Origin: Eubacteriales bacterium
GTDB taxonomy: Bacteria > Bacillota_A > Clostridia > Lachnospirales > Lachnospiraceae
Length of the DNA stretch: 18,829 nt
NCBI GenBank assembly: GCA_030533315.1
Contig: JAUNJL010000049.1
Span: 1-18,829 of the forward strand
Direction: 5' to 3'
In this document: positions 6,515-17,278 of the stretch, in pieces
Numbering within the stretch: position 1 is the stretch's first letter
How the letters are laid out: the number at the start of each line of letters is the position of its first letter
Notes under the pieces: model-generated
What the model was told of the DNA's origin: nothing
The model's input: only the letters and a program-made list of their open reading frames with translations
Databases searched by the model: none
Position numbers and translations under genes: made by a program

Positions 6515-6527
6515 CGATTTACTGTAT

Positions 6528-6913
6528 AAGTCCAGTCGCAAAGCAGGGGCGTATGGTGCGCTGGCGCACCGATACGCACATGCTTTAGCGACGACAACAG
6601 GTATGAGCAGGGAGGGCGTCAGCCCGGAGTGCGAATAGCTGTTAGGATCGCGAGAGGGCATCGTCCCGAAGCGATCCGTGGGACTTATACAAGCAAGTCC
6701 AGTGGCAAAGCAGGGGCGTATGGTGCGCTGGCGCACCGATACGCACATGCTTTAGCGACGACAACAGGTATGAGCAGGGAGGGCGTCAGCCCGGAGTGCG
6801 AATAGCTGTTAGGATCGCGAGAGGGCATCGTCCCGAAGCGATCCGTGGGACTTATACAAGCAAGTCCAGTGGCAAAGCAGGGGCGTATGGTGCGCTGGCG
6901 CACCGATACGCAC
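6528..6913 (+). repeat. 167-bp tandem repeat array, 2.3 copies, highly structured
   Basis: Two full 167-bp units (6528-6694, 6695-6861) and a 52-bp partial third unit (6862-6913) are head to tail. The full copies differ at a single base (C at 6537, G at 6704). Each unit holds several hairpins: a near-perfect 13-bp one built on GGTGCGC/GCGCACC (6549-6577 in copy 1), GGGC/GCCC (6614-6625), a 7-bp outer stem GGATCGC/GCGATCC (6645-6677), and GGACTT/AAGTCC bridging adjacent units (6681-6700). The third copy stops just after the first hairpin. Minus-strand open frames through the array restate the repeat and, since 167 is not a multiple of 3, are not credible proteins. The near-identity implies recent amplification. 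Whether the unit occurs elsewhere in the genome cannot be seen here. Confidence 0.9.
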
Positions 6914-12938: not shown

Positions 12939-13026
12939 TCCGTCAGAGAATGAACAATGAAAGAGGTGCTGCCGCCCTTTGACCGCCGCCGGTTAAATGC
13001 CGGGGAACGAAAAGGGTGACAGATCA

Positions 13027-13064
13027 AAAGTGCCGTACATGGGGAGACCTGTGTACGGCGCTTT
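13027..13064. terminator. Terminator between convergent oppA and the deacetylase gene
   Basis: A 13-bp stem (AAAGTGCCGTACA, 13027-13039, with 13052-13064; one G-T pair) closes a 12-base loop. The A/T-rich ends allow a short U tract on either strand (TTTT on the minus strand, CTTTGCATTT on the plus). It lies about 90 bases past oppA and 65 bases past the end of the minus-strand deacetylase gene. Confidence 0.7.
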
Positions 13065-13130
13065 GCATTTCAAAAAGGGGGACTGTGGAAAGGATGGGCG
13101 GCAAAGAGGATGCAGGGGACTGGGGCAGGG

Positions 13131-13970
13131 TCATTTTTGGCCTTCCGTAAAATCCGTAAGGCTGCCGAAGGCATACCCCATTTCCTCCCATCTGCTCAGC
13201 AGCTCATCCAGGATCTGGGCGTTGGTGGAGGAGGTGCTGTGAAGGAGGACGATGGCGCCGGGATGGACTCTGGGGATCAGCTTTTGGAAGGCCTCCTCCT
13301 TTGTGGGCTGATTATCCTGGTACCAGTCCACGTAGGCAAGACTCCAGAAAAAGGTGTGGTAGCCCAGCTCCTTTGCCATGGTGAGATTTTCCCTGCTGTA
13401 GATCCCCCTGGGTGGACGGTAGAGAGGGGGCATGGGAGAGCCGATGACCTGCTGATACAGATCCTCCACGGCCTTCAGTTCCCTTTGGAAGGCTTCTTTG
13501 GTGGAGATTTTGGACATATCCGGGTGGGTGAGGGTGTGGTTCCCAATGAGATGGCCCTCTGCCACCATCTCCTTTAGAAGCTCTGGTTGATCGGAAATAA
13601 AGTTTCCCACCACGAAAAAGGCCGCCGGCGCCTTGTGCTTTTTCAGCGCTTTTAGGATGTCCGGCATACAGCCGTTTTCGTAGCCGCAGTCGAAGGTGAG
13701 GTAGAGGATTTTTTCCTGGGTGTCTGCGGCGTAATAGGCGTGGTAGGGGGACAGCTCTTGGATGGAGGCGTTTCCTGTGGGAAGGCCGCCCTCCTCAGGG
13801 AAGCTCAGCCCCCAGCCGCTGCTTTCCAGGGCCAGAGGGGAGGATGCGGTCAGGGAAAAATGGAGCCGCCTTATGCCTCCCAGGAGGGAGCCTGCGAGAA
13901 AGGCGGCGAGAAAAAACAGGGGAATCCCAAAGGGACGCCAGGACGGCGGGAGAATAGAAGATGGTTTCAT
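13131..13970 (-). CDS. pdaA: PdaA-like polysaccharide deacetylase, membrane-anchored
   Basis: This 279-residue carbohydrate esterase family 4 protein has one N-terminal membrane segment at about 13-32. The catalytic domain faces outside. Motifs, numbered from the chosen start, are TFDCGYENG (92-100, metal aspartate D94), NHTLTH (144-149, metal histidines), RPPRG (185-189), AYVDW and LLHS (242-245) followed by STNAQ. The GYENG and STNA patterns are those of PdaA, which removes acetyl groups from N-acetylmuramic acid during muramic delta-lactam formation in spore cortex. Another peptidoglycan deacetylase is possible. The start at 13970 is preferred over ATGs at 14054 and 13988 because GAGGT precedes it (13975-13979) and a weak -10 box TATACT (13998-14003) would begin the transcript just upstream. 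The strong terminator of the upstream minus-strand RNA lies 70 bases before it. Confidence 0.88.
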   Translation of the reverse strand: MKPSSILPPSWRPFGIPLFFLAAFLAGSLLGGIRRLHFSLTASSPLALESSGWGLSFPEEGGLPTGNASIQELSPYHAYYAADTQEKILYLTFDCGYENGCMPDILKALKKHKAPAAFFVVGNFISDQPELLKEMVAEGHLIGNHTLTHPDMSKISTKEAFQRELKAVEDLYQQVIGSPMPPLYRPPRGIYSRENLTMAKELGYHTFFWSLAYVDWYQDNQPTKEEAFQKLIPRVHPGAIVLLHSTSSTNAQILDELLSRWEEMGYAFGSLTDFTEGQK

Positions 13971-14040
13971 GATGACCTCGTCGGACATTTTGTATCTAGT
14001 ATATGGAGACCGGCGAGGGATTATGAGCCGGGAGAAGGGC

Positions 14041-14084
14041 AAAAAAAGAGCCATCAGCTGTTCCGTCCGAAGCTGATGGCCTTT
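14041..14084 (-). terminator. Strong intrinsic terminator of the minus-strand RNA
   Basis: On the minus strand, GCCATCAGCT pairs perfectly over 10 bp with AGCTGATGGC (arms at 14071-14080 and 14050-14059) across an 11-base loop. TCTTTTTTT follows (14041-14049). The plus-strand reading has only a weak T tract, so the direction is clearly minus. It lies about 70 bases upstream of the deacetylase start codon. Confidence 0.88.
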
Positions 14085-14110
14085 ATGAAAATTCTCTGTC
14101 CAATGGAATA

Positions 14111-14440
14111 TACCTCTCTCTCTTTAGGATTTGCGTATAAAAGAAACTTTATTCGGTGGTCTAACCCTTCTATCGTAAGGATATGGCTCAAACAGGAAAT
14201 CGATATCTTCCCAAATGCGTGCAGCCCTTCGAAACCGATCTGACTCTTACTTTCCCATGGGACCGTACCTTCCTTTTTTATATTTAAAACGTAAGGAATT
14301 TATAAAATGATGATCTTGGGGGTCTGTACCTCTCTTTCTCAGATTATGAAACGATAAATCGTTTTAAAAAATAACGCTTCTGGTGGTCTGTACCTCTCTT
14401 TCTTAGATTATGAGATGACTCCTTATGTTTTCGGTGGTCT
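14111..14440 (-). repeat. Imperfect direct-repeat modules within the predicted RNA
   Basis: Read on the plus strand, TACC followed by CTCTC-rich sequence occurs at 14111, 14327 and 14391, and a diverged form (TACCTTCC) at 14265. GGTCT (usually GGTGGTCT) occurs at 14158, 14321, 14385 and 14436. The two best copies share GGTCTGTACCTCTCTTTCT, then C or T, then AGATTATGA (14321-14349 and 14385-14413), with one difference in 29 bases and a spacing of 64. Distances between modules vary (45-58 bases from TACC to the next GGTCT), and the segment between them is not conserved, unlike a CRISPR array. Confidence 0.65.
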
Positions 14441-14486
14441 CACTCCCTTGCTGTTTATTTCGTATTCCCTTTTGTTTTATGGGTAC

Positions 14487-14515
14487 AATATAACAGATAA
14501 AAGTGGATTTGTCAA
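14487..14515 (-). promoter_or_regulatory. Near-consensus promoter of the minus-strand RNA
   Basis: On the minus strand a perfect TTGACA (14510-14515) is separated by 17 bases from TATATT (14487-14492). This is one of the best promoter matches in the window, yet no coding region follows it until the deacetylase about 510 bases away. Confidence 0.75.
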
Positions 14516-14610
14516 CAGTAAAATGAAAATATTTATAAAATTTCCTGAAATAAGATTGGAAATTTTTTGAATAAAATAAATAATTCTGAAAATATAAACA
14601 AGGACTTCCG

Positions 14611-14639
14611 TTGTGGTTCCGGCGAAACAAGTGTATAAT
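14611..14639 (+). promoter_or_regulatory. Promoter of the M24 peptidase gene
   Basis: TTGTGG (14611-14616) is separated by 17 bases from a perfect TATAAT (14634-14639). It is preceded by about 90 bases of A/T-rich DNA shared with the divergent RNA promoter. The -35 box is a partial match. Transcription would begin near 14646, leaving a 30-nt leader. Confidence 0.6.
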
Positions 14640-14675
14640 GAAAGAAATCAACGATAAGAGAAAAGAGGTAATGAA

Positions 14676-15746
14676 ATGAACGTGGAACAGTTTTTGGAAG
14701 AGAGGGGACTGGATGCCCTTGTGGTGACGGATCCTTATAATATGCGCCATATCAGCGGTTTTCGGGGTGGGGAGGGCTGCCTGTATCTTTCCAGGAAGCG
14801 GCGCCTTCTCATCACCGATTCCCGCTACACCGAGGCTGCGGAGAAGGAAAGCGATTTTGAGGTTGCAAAGGAAAGCATCAGCCGAAAGAGAGAAGAGATC
14901 CTGAAGGAGGCCGTAGAGGGGGAAGGGAAGTCCTCCGGCTTTGTCATGGGGTACGAGGATCAGTCCCTGATCTGCTGTCAGTTTGACCGGCTGAGGGAGG
15001 CCCTTCCCGTAGAAAAATGGGTTCCCCTGAAGAACGCTCTGGCAGAGCTGCGCATGGTAAAGAGCCAGGAGGAGCTGGAGTGTCTGGCCAGGGCTGAGGA
15101 GATCGGCGACCGGGCCTTTGAGAAGCTTCTTCCCCAATTAAAGGCAGGTATGACGGAGCTGGAGGCGGCTGCCCTTTTGGAGTACCTGATGAAGAAGGAG
15201 GGGGCGGAGGATCTTAGCTTTGCCACCATCGTGGCCTCCGGGGTCAATTCCTCCATGCCCCATGCCATTCCGGGGGAGAAGAGATTTGAGGAGGGAGATT
15301 TTATCACCTTCGATTTTGGGTGCAAATATAGAGGCTACTGCTCCGATATGACGAGAACGGTGGTTTTGGGAAAGGCCAGTGAGAAGCAAAGGGAGATCTA
15401 CCAGGTGGTCCTGAAGGCCCAGCTGGCGGCCTTAAAGGCGCTGAGGGCCGGTGTTTCCGGAGCCAGCGTGGACAAGGTGGCCAGGGACATCATCACCCAG
15501 GCAGGATATGGAGACTGCTTTGGCCATGGGCTGGGACACAGCGTGGGGCTGGAGATCCATGAGAGTCCCCGCCTGTCTCCCTCGGACGACACCATCCTGA
15601 GAGCGGGGATGATCCAGACCGTGGAGCCGGGGATCTACGTGCCCGGCTTCGGGGGCGTCCGCATTGAGGACATGGTGATCGTGACGGAGGAGGGATGCCG
15701 GAACCTGGCCCACAGCCCCAAGGAGCTTGTGGAAATTCCGGTGTAA
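14676..15746 (+). CDS. M24 family aminopeptidase (Xaa-Pro type)
   Basis: This 356-residue cytoplasmic metallopeptidase has a creatinase-like N-terminal domain (about 1-125) and a pita-bread catalytic domain (about 132-350). The five metal ligands are present: D213 (FDFG), D224 (SDMTRT), H288 (GHGLGHSVGLEIHE), E317 (EPGIY) and E331 (RIED). H195 (PHAIPG) and H295 fit the active-site histidines. The length and N-terminal domain favour an X-Pro aminopeptidase or dipeptidase over methionine aminopeptidase. Such enzymes release residues in front of proline and help recycle imported peptides, which fits the nearby opp genes. AAGAGG at 14663-14668 sets the start; the ATG at 14671 is out of frame. The stop is directly followed by the next promoter. 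Confidence 0.93.
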   Translation: MNVEQFLEERGLDALVVTDPYNMRHISGFRGGEGCLYLSRKRRLLITDSRYTEAAEKESDFEVAKESISRKREEILKEAVEGEGKSSGFVMGYEDQSLICCQFDRLREALPVEKWVPLKNALAELRMVKSQEELECLARAEEIGDRAFEKLLPQLKAGMTELEAAALLEYLMKKEGAEDLSFATIVASGVNSSMPHAIPGEKRFEEGDFITFDFGCKYRGYCSDMTRTVVLGKASEKQREIYQVVLKAQLAALKALRAGVSGASVDKVARDIITQAGYGDCFGHGLGHSVGLEIHESPRLSPSDDTILRAGMIQTVEPGIYVPGFGGVRIEDMVIVTEEGCRNLAHSPKELVEIPV

Positions 15747-16288: not shown

Positions 16289-17278
16289 ATGATCACACTA
16301 AACGATTACCTTTATGACGGGGACACCATACTGAAGATCCTGCAGCGTTATACGGCGGACCTGAAGGAAAGCGTCAGGGTGACTGAGAACCAGATCGACA
16401 TGGTTCACTGCGATTTTTTGATGCAGGTCATGGAGCTTTTGCAGCACAATGATTTTTTGGCCTCACAGTCCCAGCGTATCCGGGATTTTTATAAATACAT
16501 GGCGGGGGCCTATCCGTACCTTGCATTTACCTTTAAGGGCCGGATCAAGTCCTTGATCCGGGCGGAGGAAAAGTTTAATGGTTATGTGGTGGAGTACGTT
16601 TACGACCATTACAGGGAGCACGGCTCCTTCCCCTCCCTGACGGAGCTGAAGGAAAGGCTGAGCCGTTTTCGGGATCTGATCGCCTATCGGATTGTTATTT
16701 CCCTTCCCAAATGTCACCTGAAGAAGGGGGAGGATCAGGAGGAGAGGGAGATCCAATATCTGTATCAGGTGGCGAACCGTCTCCCCGCCTTTTTGGAAGA
16801 GAGGGGCTTTACGCCGGAGCAGTCCTGTGCATCCATGGACAGGTGTTCTTCCCTTCTCATGAGGGATGTCCGTCCCTATTACCGGGATTACGTGGCGAAT
16901 CCCAGTATTTACGGGTATCGTTCCCTTCACATCACCTTCTATGACAATCTTGCCCGGTGCTACGTGGAGGTGCAGCTTCGCACGAAGGCCATGGACGACT
17001 ATGCGGAGATCGGTCCTGCCAATCATCTGGGGTACGAAAAGCGCCAGGAGAGGGAGCGGGTGCGCAGGGCCGCCATCCCGGAGGGAGAGTTCGTCTATTT
17101 TGACGAGGCCTACCAGCGGGGACGTCTTTTGCAGGAGCTGGAGCTTTCCAAGCTGGACGTGAACATGTTTGCCGCCGTGGACAATTCCTTGATCAACGAT
17201 GGCTGCGGCCTTTTCCGCGGGAGGCAGATCCTTCCTTACGAGCATCTCTCCAGATTTCAGAACGACCTCATTGATTAG
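16289..17278 (+). CDS. RelA/SpoT-domain alarmone synthetase-like protein
   Basis: This 329-residue protein carries a RelA/SpoT nucleotidyltransferase domain at about 80-255: [12 protein letters not shown] (84-95), [11 protein letters not shown] (127-137), [15 protein letters not shown] (200-214), VEVQLRT (226-232, conserved E227) and AEIGPANH (239-246). Enzymes of this family transfer pyrophosphate from ATP to GDP or GTP to make (p)ppGpp. No HD hydrolase, TGS or ACT domain is present, so it resembles a small alarmone synthetase. It is longer than the usual 200-250 residues, with about 75 extra N-terminal residues and an insertion at about 138-195. The lysine usual in the NPK-x-NGYRS motif is serine. 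Activity is therefore likely but unproven. It follows the ACT-domain gene by 11 bases. The enolase gene follows after 104 bases. Confidence 0.85.

Follow-up and report, generated by a model that had tools for sequence, protein, structure and literature searches.

The window analysed here is an 18,829-nt stretch of DNA from a member of the Lachnospiraceae (GenBank assembly GCA_030533315.1, contig JAUNJL010000049.1). The minus strand of positions 14515-14041 is a transcription unit with a consensus promoter and a strong terminator and without a long open reading frame (ORF). It lies between a divergent upstream gene resembling Xaa-Pro peptidases and a downstream gene, on the same strand as the unit, resembling the polysaccharide deacetylase PdaA, both matches falling below the curated cut-off. 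An enolase gene (TIGR01060) is found farther along the window and, upstream of it, positions 16289-17275 of the plus strand encode a protein that matches RelA/SpoT weakly (39 bits, far below cut-off).

A preliminary description of the window had proposed this unit as a new non-coding RNA, and its account of the boundaries holds. The promoter (14487-14515, minus strand), located by motif scan, consists of TTGACA at 14515-14510, a 17-nt spacer and TATATT at 14492-14487 (11 of 12 matches), with a TG preceding the -10 to give an extended -10 element (TCTGTTATATT); transcription is estimated to start near 14480. Promoter-like sites number seven in the region 13000-15500, compared to a shuffle mean of 1.8. 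The intrinsic terminator (14041-14082, minus strand; dG -19.6) has a perfect 10-bp stem (14050-14059 with 14071-14080) and an 11-nt loop followed by the U tract TCTTTTTTT, and places the end of the transcript at 14041, as described. It begins directly after the stop codon of a mini-ORF, and was absent from our initial scan of the window because the scanner takes loops of 3-8 only. The sharp contrast in base composition is also real: G+C content is 0.27-0.44 in 200-nt windows starting at 14000-14500 and 0.53-0.63 in windows clear of the unit. The unit contains no ORF of 60 amino acids or more of its own; long frames overlapping it extend into the flanking genes or their antisense strand. A long hidden ORF was rejected on this ground and because the number of repeated modules differs between loci. 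The label "non-coding" does not fit the whole of the unit, because the unit ends in a conserved mini-ORF that is probably translated.

The unit holds six copies of one module, a feature missing from the preliminary description. All six lie on the minus strand and are predicted to form duplexes of -10.7 to -16.4 kcal/mol with the 16S rRNA 3' tail. M1 (14423-14449; -12.9 kcal/mol) reads AAGGGAGUGAGACC-A-CCG-AAA-ACA-UAA, a Shine-Dalgarno (SD)-like segment with CCG at the start-codon position. M2 (14376-14404; AAGAAAG[A]GAGGUACAGACC-A-CCA; -15.7 kcal/mol) and M3 (14311-14340; GAGAAAG[A]GAGGUACAGACC-C-CCA; -15.4 kcal/mol) each have a bulged extended SD and CCA at the start position. M4 (14247-14278; -15.6 kcal/mol) joins an extended SD to a three-codon minigene, AAAAAGG[A]AGGUACGGUCC-C-AUG-GGA-AAG-UAA, while M5 (14148-14173; AUAGAAGGGUUAGACC-A-CCG; -10.7 kcal/mol) has a weaker SD and CCG at the start position. 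The terminal module M6 (14083-14122; -16.4 kcal/mol) consists of GAGAGAGAGGUAUAUUCCA and the mini-ORF UUG GAC AGA GAA UUU UCA UAA (14103-14083).

The unit is not a chance arrangement of signals, because relatives keep it. Searching with the neighbouring peptidase led to Blautia relatives, and in four of the six closest loci (L001, L003, L004 and L005) the RNA sits between the same two genes. Aligned with the window, these four share its promoter and its repeated blocks and have a near-identical 5' end (CAUAAAACAAAAGGGA); in their terminators the stem is kept and the sequence altered. In the genome of L006, the RNA is found elsewhere, between a pdaA-like gene and enolase (context taken from a blastp cluster of ORFs, with enolase read from the sequence). 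A DNA query detected the RNA in 40 of 64 Blautia-genus genomes at E<=1e-3, four of these matches (G030, G038, G041 and G060) being 26-31 nt long with E about 1e-4. At E<=1e-3, a sequence-only model spanning the promoter to the second module (R1) had matches in 96 of 397 family genomes, of which 43 reached E<=1e-6 and the weaker ones count as candidates; for the family draw, loci were returned for 30 places and 28 were used (L088 and L089 repeat known loci). A wider model (R2) had matches in 37 of 391 class genomes at E<=1e-3, and about 11 of the 29 class-level loci (L124-L152) were judged by eye to be members. The expectation that the unit would recur in related genomes is thus upheld by the genus, family and class searches. 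One genome, G213, has three good RNA-model matches at separate places (C149:27999-28133, C143:11951-12111 and C149:11675-11816); G271, G211 and G418 have only weak second R1 matches (E 5e-5 to 1e-4).

These relatives conserve the promoter, which is of the sigma-A type, as well as the modules, the mini-ORF and the terminator. The promoter pattern is correctly placed in 31 of 32 loci, and TTGACA is invariant in all 29 aligned relatives drawn from those 31, which had been chosen with a looser promoter pattern. A hairpin and T run occupy the equivalent place at the other end. A joint promoter and terminator scan of 60 loci found both elements in 42, of which L068, L074 and L100 were removed for a wrongly placed terminator, leaving the 39 transcripts used below to count 16S sites and to assess SD openness. 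L061 has a promoter of its own; positions 1-47 of its minus strand, close to one end of the RNA locus, match a group II intron (RF02001, 39.6 bits).

Copy number varies between loci, from about 3 to 10 modules. The 5' part of a module is an SD segment that reads GAAAG[N]GAGGU or GAAAGG[N]AGGU, where any of the four bases can be the extra one (AAAG[A/C/G/U]GAGG, AAAGG[C/A]AGG), or the ungapped AAGGAGGU. The 3' part is usually ACRGWCC, followed by one base and then a codon at the start-codon position, about 9 nt past the SD core. This codon is usually CCA or CCG in upstream modules, sometimes CCC, CCU, AAG or AUC, and rarely AUG; the first module with an AGGU core has NUG there in only 6 of 57 loci. 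Later modules of long arrays have AUG NNN NNN UAA. A lineage with diverged letters (the family of G645; L147 and L184-L189) replaces AGGUACRGWCC with AGGUGA[G]UCC, then RAUG or AAG. The same overall architecture can be seen there, for instance at L147:1490-1830 on the plus strand, with modules of the form AGGUGAGUCC-RAUG/AAG and short terminal frames; in L147, L184 and L185, the last module is a short AUG frame directly before the terminator. The string AGGUGAGUCC also precedes longer reading frames, in L191 and L192.

The 3'-most frame of the window RNA, at 14103-14083, is probably translated. Across loci, the terminal module carries UUG, AUG or GUG and a frame of 5-10 codons whose stop abuts the terminator. 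Under a fixed rule (SD-like segment, CC[ACG], NUG, a stop within 3-11 codons, then a hairpin and T run), 54 of 60 loci have such a mini-ORF on the RNA strand, compared to 2 of 60 on the opposite one. No automatic call was made in L091 (wrong orientation), L097, L098, L099, L100 and L116. In each of the 54 called loci, 0-2 nt separate the stop from the hairpin that follows. Starts are UUG in 34, AUG in 18 and GUG in 2, and stops are TAA in 42, TAG in 11 and TGA in 1, with UUG replaced by AUG (for example L061) or GUG (L106, L109) and TAA by TAG. One extra codon is present in 7 of the 32 first-set loci, window included, and the in-frame stop still abuts the terminator. In another lineage (L126-L129, L133), a frame of 13-14 codons ending in ..YSV was recognized by eye before the terminator.

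The encoded peptides mostly follow the pattern M-[D/E]-x..., with D or E as the second residue in 52 of 54. Five distinct sequences (stop included) code for MDSIV, and two each for MDNQVH and MDEIV. On a minimum spanning tree, substitutions at codon positions 1, 2 and 3 number 11, 16 and 25, a modest bias (p = 0.019), and codon changes comprise 29 non-synonymous and 14 synonymous ones, a pattern suggesting that selection acts more clearly on the frame than on the peptide. The set of features expected of a peptide-coding mRNA (SD, start, stop, conserved frame and synonymous change) is found only in this 5-10-codon terminal ORF.

The RNA resembles no family in Rfam 15 above its gathering threshold, in agreement with the preliminary description, which had proposed it as a new RNA. 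A scan of the whole window gave no match on the unit at E<=1. A focused scan of 14000-14560 at E<=10 returned only RT-6, on the other strand (20.7 bits; cutoff 46.7), and leu-phe_leader (16.5 bits; cutoff 70), both far below threshold, and a scan of 20 related loci at E<=1 returned two matches, neither on the RNA. A known Rfam RNA was accordingly rejected for the unit and for the RNA of those 20 loci. We regard as secure both the anatomy described above and the existence of an RNA family in Lachnospiraceae that is new to Rfam. Searches of open-licence papers gave none whose title or summary describes tandem SD modules in a small RNA, and if its modules do hold 30S subunits, this would be the first RNA known to us that consists of tandem anti-anti-Shine-Dalgarno sites. 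A paper on start sites in C. phytofermentans reports a strong unannotated non-coding unit downstream of cphy2658 (PMC5171806), which we do not equate with the present RNA.

The unit had also been read as a large structured RNA, and this part of the preliminary description did not survive. The fold of the window transcript has a z-score of -0.18 relative to shuffles, and the mean z-score of 33 related transcript bodies (those of the 39 with bodies <=480 nt) is -0.48, three of the 33 falling below -2. In the 5' region of a 29-sequence alignment, none of 11 predicted pairs covaries; these pairs are invariant 3-bp mini-stems inside modules and a spurious one in the promoter. With no excess folding and no covarying pairs in the 5' region, a conserved structured RNA of the OLE or ROOL type was rejected; nor does the unit belong with large structured RNAs such as tmRNA or RNase P RNA. 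The RNA is like OLE, ROOL, GOLLD and HEARO in being intergenic and hundreds of nucleotides long, and unlike those highly structured RNAs in its little structure and its lack of an Rfam match. An extra middle hairpin, or its conserved loop near CAGCCGGUAACGUUCAGAUAUG, was seen in some distant members (L103:1283-1381 on the minus strand, and L105, L106, L107, L109, L114 and L108), with stem sequences that differ among them; no such hairpin was seen in the window. The information in this RNA is carried instead by repeated linear modules that match the 3' tail of 16S rRNA.

The 16S tail, 5'-GGAUCACCUCCUUUCU-3', is identical in all 24 operons of six genomes matching the RNA models, one from the Blautia genus and five from the family or class (a 16S end was found in 1 of 12 and 5 of 20 genomes, the others being drafts or having no exact match). 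In the 39 transcripts, sites predicted to pair with the tail at <=-10 kcal/mol number 156, compared to 37 in dinucleotide shuffles and 40 with a reversed tail. Permuting the columns of 166 unique 23-mers, representing 192 module places with an AGGU core (modules with other cores were excluded), raised the mean duplex energy from -13.47 to -12.25, and 0 of 200 permutations were as stable as the observed set. None of 150 shuffled tails gave a mean as low (the best was -11.26) or a permutation difference as large. Permuted columns pair worse, so the letters within a module co-vary, and they do so in a manner that preserves the match to the 16S tail. Modules share duplication and descent, so these permutation tests overstate independence, and the evidence from co-variation is strong rather than conclusive. 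The modules of the letter-diverged lineage are still complementary to GGAUCACCUCCUUUCU, which is an assumed tail for that lineage, a 16S end having been found in 0 of its 8 genomes.

Several observations count against pairing. In the window at -10, the RNA has 17.6 sites per kb compared to 10.8 elsewhere, in G-rich coding DNA, although at -13 the densities are 12.6 and 3.95. L111 has no enrichment (2 sites; shuffle mean 1.35; reversed tail 2). In predicted local folding, SD cores are somewhat less often unpaired than other G/C bases (0.31 compared to 0.38), with the opposite direction in 9 of the 39 transcripts. The 16S tail is invariant in the genomes checked and so offers no compensatory changes to compare, and pairing alone would not require letters as specific as the conserved UACRGWCC. 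On balance, the predicted pairing of the modules with 16S rRNA is well supported by computation, and the data strongly suggest that the modules have been selected to pair with the single-stranded 16S 3' tail, usually with one tolerated extra base.

A sequence able to pair with the anti-SD, or to occupy the mRNA path, is what a ribosome-associated non-coding RNA would be expected to have, and by prediction this RNA has it. Since the RNA looks free-standing and its motif is not reused elsewhere, it most likely acts on ribosomes. Whether it captures 30S subunits and also carries a translated minigene, a physiological role that we infer from the features above, we consider an even question. As the upstream modules usually have CCN (or AAG) at the start-codon position, they would dock 30S subunits through the 16S tail without productive initiation, and a single abundant transcript made of such start-less modules could therefore hold several subunits, titrating them or blocking their anti-SD. 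SD-dependent initiation might thereby be lowered or retuned, perhaps when cells grow slowly, are dormant or are under stress. The 3' minigene would be translated, placing a ribosome on the terminator base, where it could protect the 3' end or tie RNA stability or termination to the supply of free ribosomes. The full form of this model, in which the array is a multi-site trap for 30S subunits and the terminal minigene reports or adjusts the RNA level by free ribosomes, is one we put forward tentatively, as a possibility somewhat short of even. We hold with similar reserve, and would not yet wager on it, that such RNAs are a new kind of translation regulator, widespread in Lachnospiraceae and with a letter-diverged counterpart in other Clostridia.

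Precedents exist for parts of this model. An independent experimental study of S. aureus ribosomes reports extended start-proximal SD-aSD helices with longer spacers (PMC13009471), and the modules are like such extended SD initiation regions of Firmicutes in pairing past GGAGG towards the start codon; they are unlike them in being repeated, mostly start-less and part of a small RNA, whereas the extended SDs drive real genes (PMC13009471). A close functional parallel is SprF1 of S. aureus: according to a review, the purine-rich sequence of this small RNA binds ribosomes, and the RNA competes with mRNAs for loading and dampens initiation (PMC8938821). The present RNA shares with SprF1 and other ribosome-associated ncRNAs (rancRNAs) its small size and its purine-rich, here predicted, ribosome-binding sequence, but SprF1, as presented in that review, belongs to the type I antitoxin RNAs and has a single purine-rich 5' sequence, compared to about 3-10 tandem modules and a terminal mini-ORF here (PMC8938821).

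Repeated modules could also bind a protein. CsrA recognizes GGA, which is exposed in the repeated hairpin loops of CsrB/RsmZ-type RNAs, and the GRAGGUACRGWCC modules might likewise titrate a translational repressor, as CsrB and RsmZ do CsrA and RsmA. Like CsrB, CsrC and RsmZ, the present RNA is free-standing and carries many copies of a short SD-like motif; a conserved linear motif in repeats of variable copy number with little structure would suit a sponge, and so would the conservation of letters past the SD (UACRG). Yet GGA is missing from the common GAGAGG and GCGAGG modules, and the sole predicted module hairpin, the invariant 3-bp GGU/ACC, has a loop without GGA; the motif here is linear rather than displayed in GGA loops. 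Nor is the motif, which a sponge would share with the upstream regions of regulated genes, found in excess elsewhere: AGGTACRGWCCA has 12 matches outside the RNA locus in eight genomes, compared to 29 for a backwards control, by which a protein-binding motif shared with mRNAs was rejected. Lack of reuse argues against a sponge with mRNA targets, and although the extra base varies freely, modules stay complementary to the 16S tail, a fit to 16S that the letter-diverged lineage retains. We consider a protein sponge unlikely.

The position of the unit raises another alternative, a cis-acting attenuator that controls the next gene downstream (pdaA in the window), in which translation of the mini-ORF would govern read-through and the SD modules would tune ribosome loading. 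The stop codon 0-2 nt before the terminator hairpin speaks for such a device, as do the 25 of 32 first-set loci in which the RNA is followed, on its own strand, by a pdaA-like gene. This linkage is not conserved more widely: the downstream gene is a different one in L076, L077, L078 and L085, no downstream ORF is present in the stretch examined for L081 and L082, and 0 of the 28 family-draw loci have a pdaA-like gene within roughly 1.5 kb. Among 27 of these (L091 excepted, its orientation being mis-set), the nearest downstream ORF is on the opposite strand in 17, on the same strand in 6 and absent in 4, with RNA ends approximate where no terminator was called. The unit from promoter to terminator is kept in all these contexts. 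A leader specific to pdaA was rejected for lack of conserved linkage and, with the pdaA-like gene absent from the family-wide draw and the next gene mostly opposite, a leader function is improbable, and we rate it below the sponge.

The modules that do have start codons suggest a minigene array, whose AUG-NNN-NNN-UAA units and terminal mini-ORF would act through peptidyl-tRNA drop-off and tRNA sequestration, effects known from the bar minigenes of phage lambda. Many AUG modules are indeed exactly AUG NNN NNN UAA behind a strong SD, like the two- to three-codon frames of the lambda bar minigenes, and the terminal ORF is coding-like. Unlike those minigenes, however, most upstream modules have no start codon (M1-M3 mostly lack one), and the array is tandem and occupies a conserved chromosomal locus; several minimal members (for example L072, L079 and L084) have no three-codon minigene, and codon identity varies. 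We consider this reading very unlikely. The least probable alternative, a guide or chaperone for 16S 3'-end maturation whose modules pair with pre-16S rRNA (tail, helix 45 strand and the trailer CUAAGG) during assembly, draws on the stronger predicted pairing, reaching past the tail, that is obtained with a longer 16S end (-23.5 compared to -15.7 kcal/mol for M2 of the window), but helix 45 is stable in mature ribosomes and the terminal mini-ORF would be left unexplained.

The preferred reading, capture of 30S subunits, would have consequences beyond this locus. The Lachnospiraceae rank among the main bacterial families of the human gut and, to our knowledge, little has been established about how they set global translation capacity; if the modules do hold 30S subunits, the RNA would offer a direct way into ribosome allocation, dormancy and dependence on the SD. 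It would also represent a class of little-structured RNAs that structure-based discovery would miss. Elsewhere in the window, the Clostridiales-1 RNA family (RF01699), of which we know no function, is represented by two tandem, very similar copies on the plus strand, at 6527-6687 (104 bits) and 6694-6854 (96 bits).
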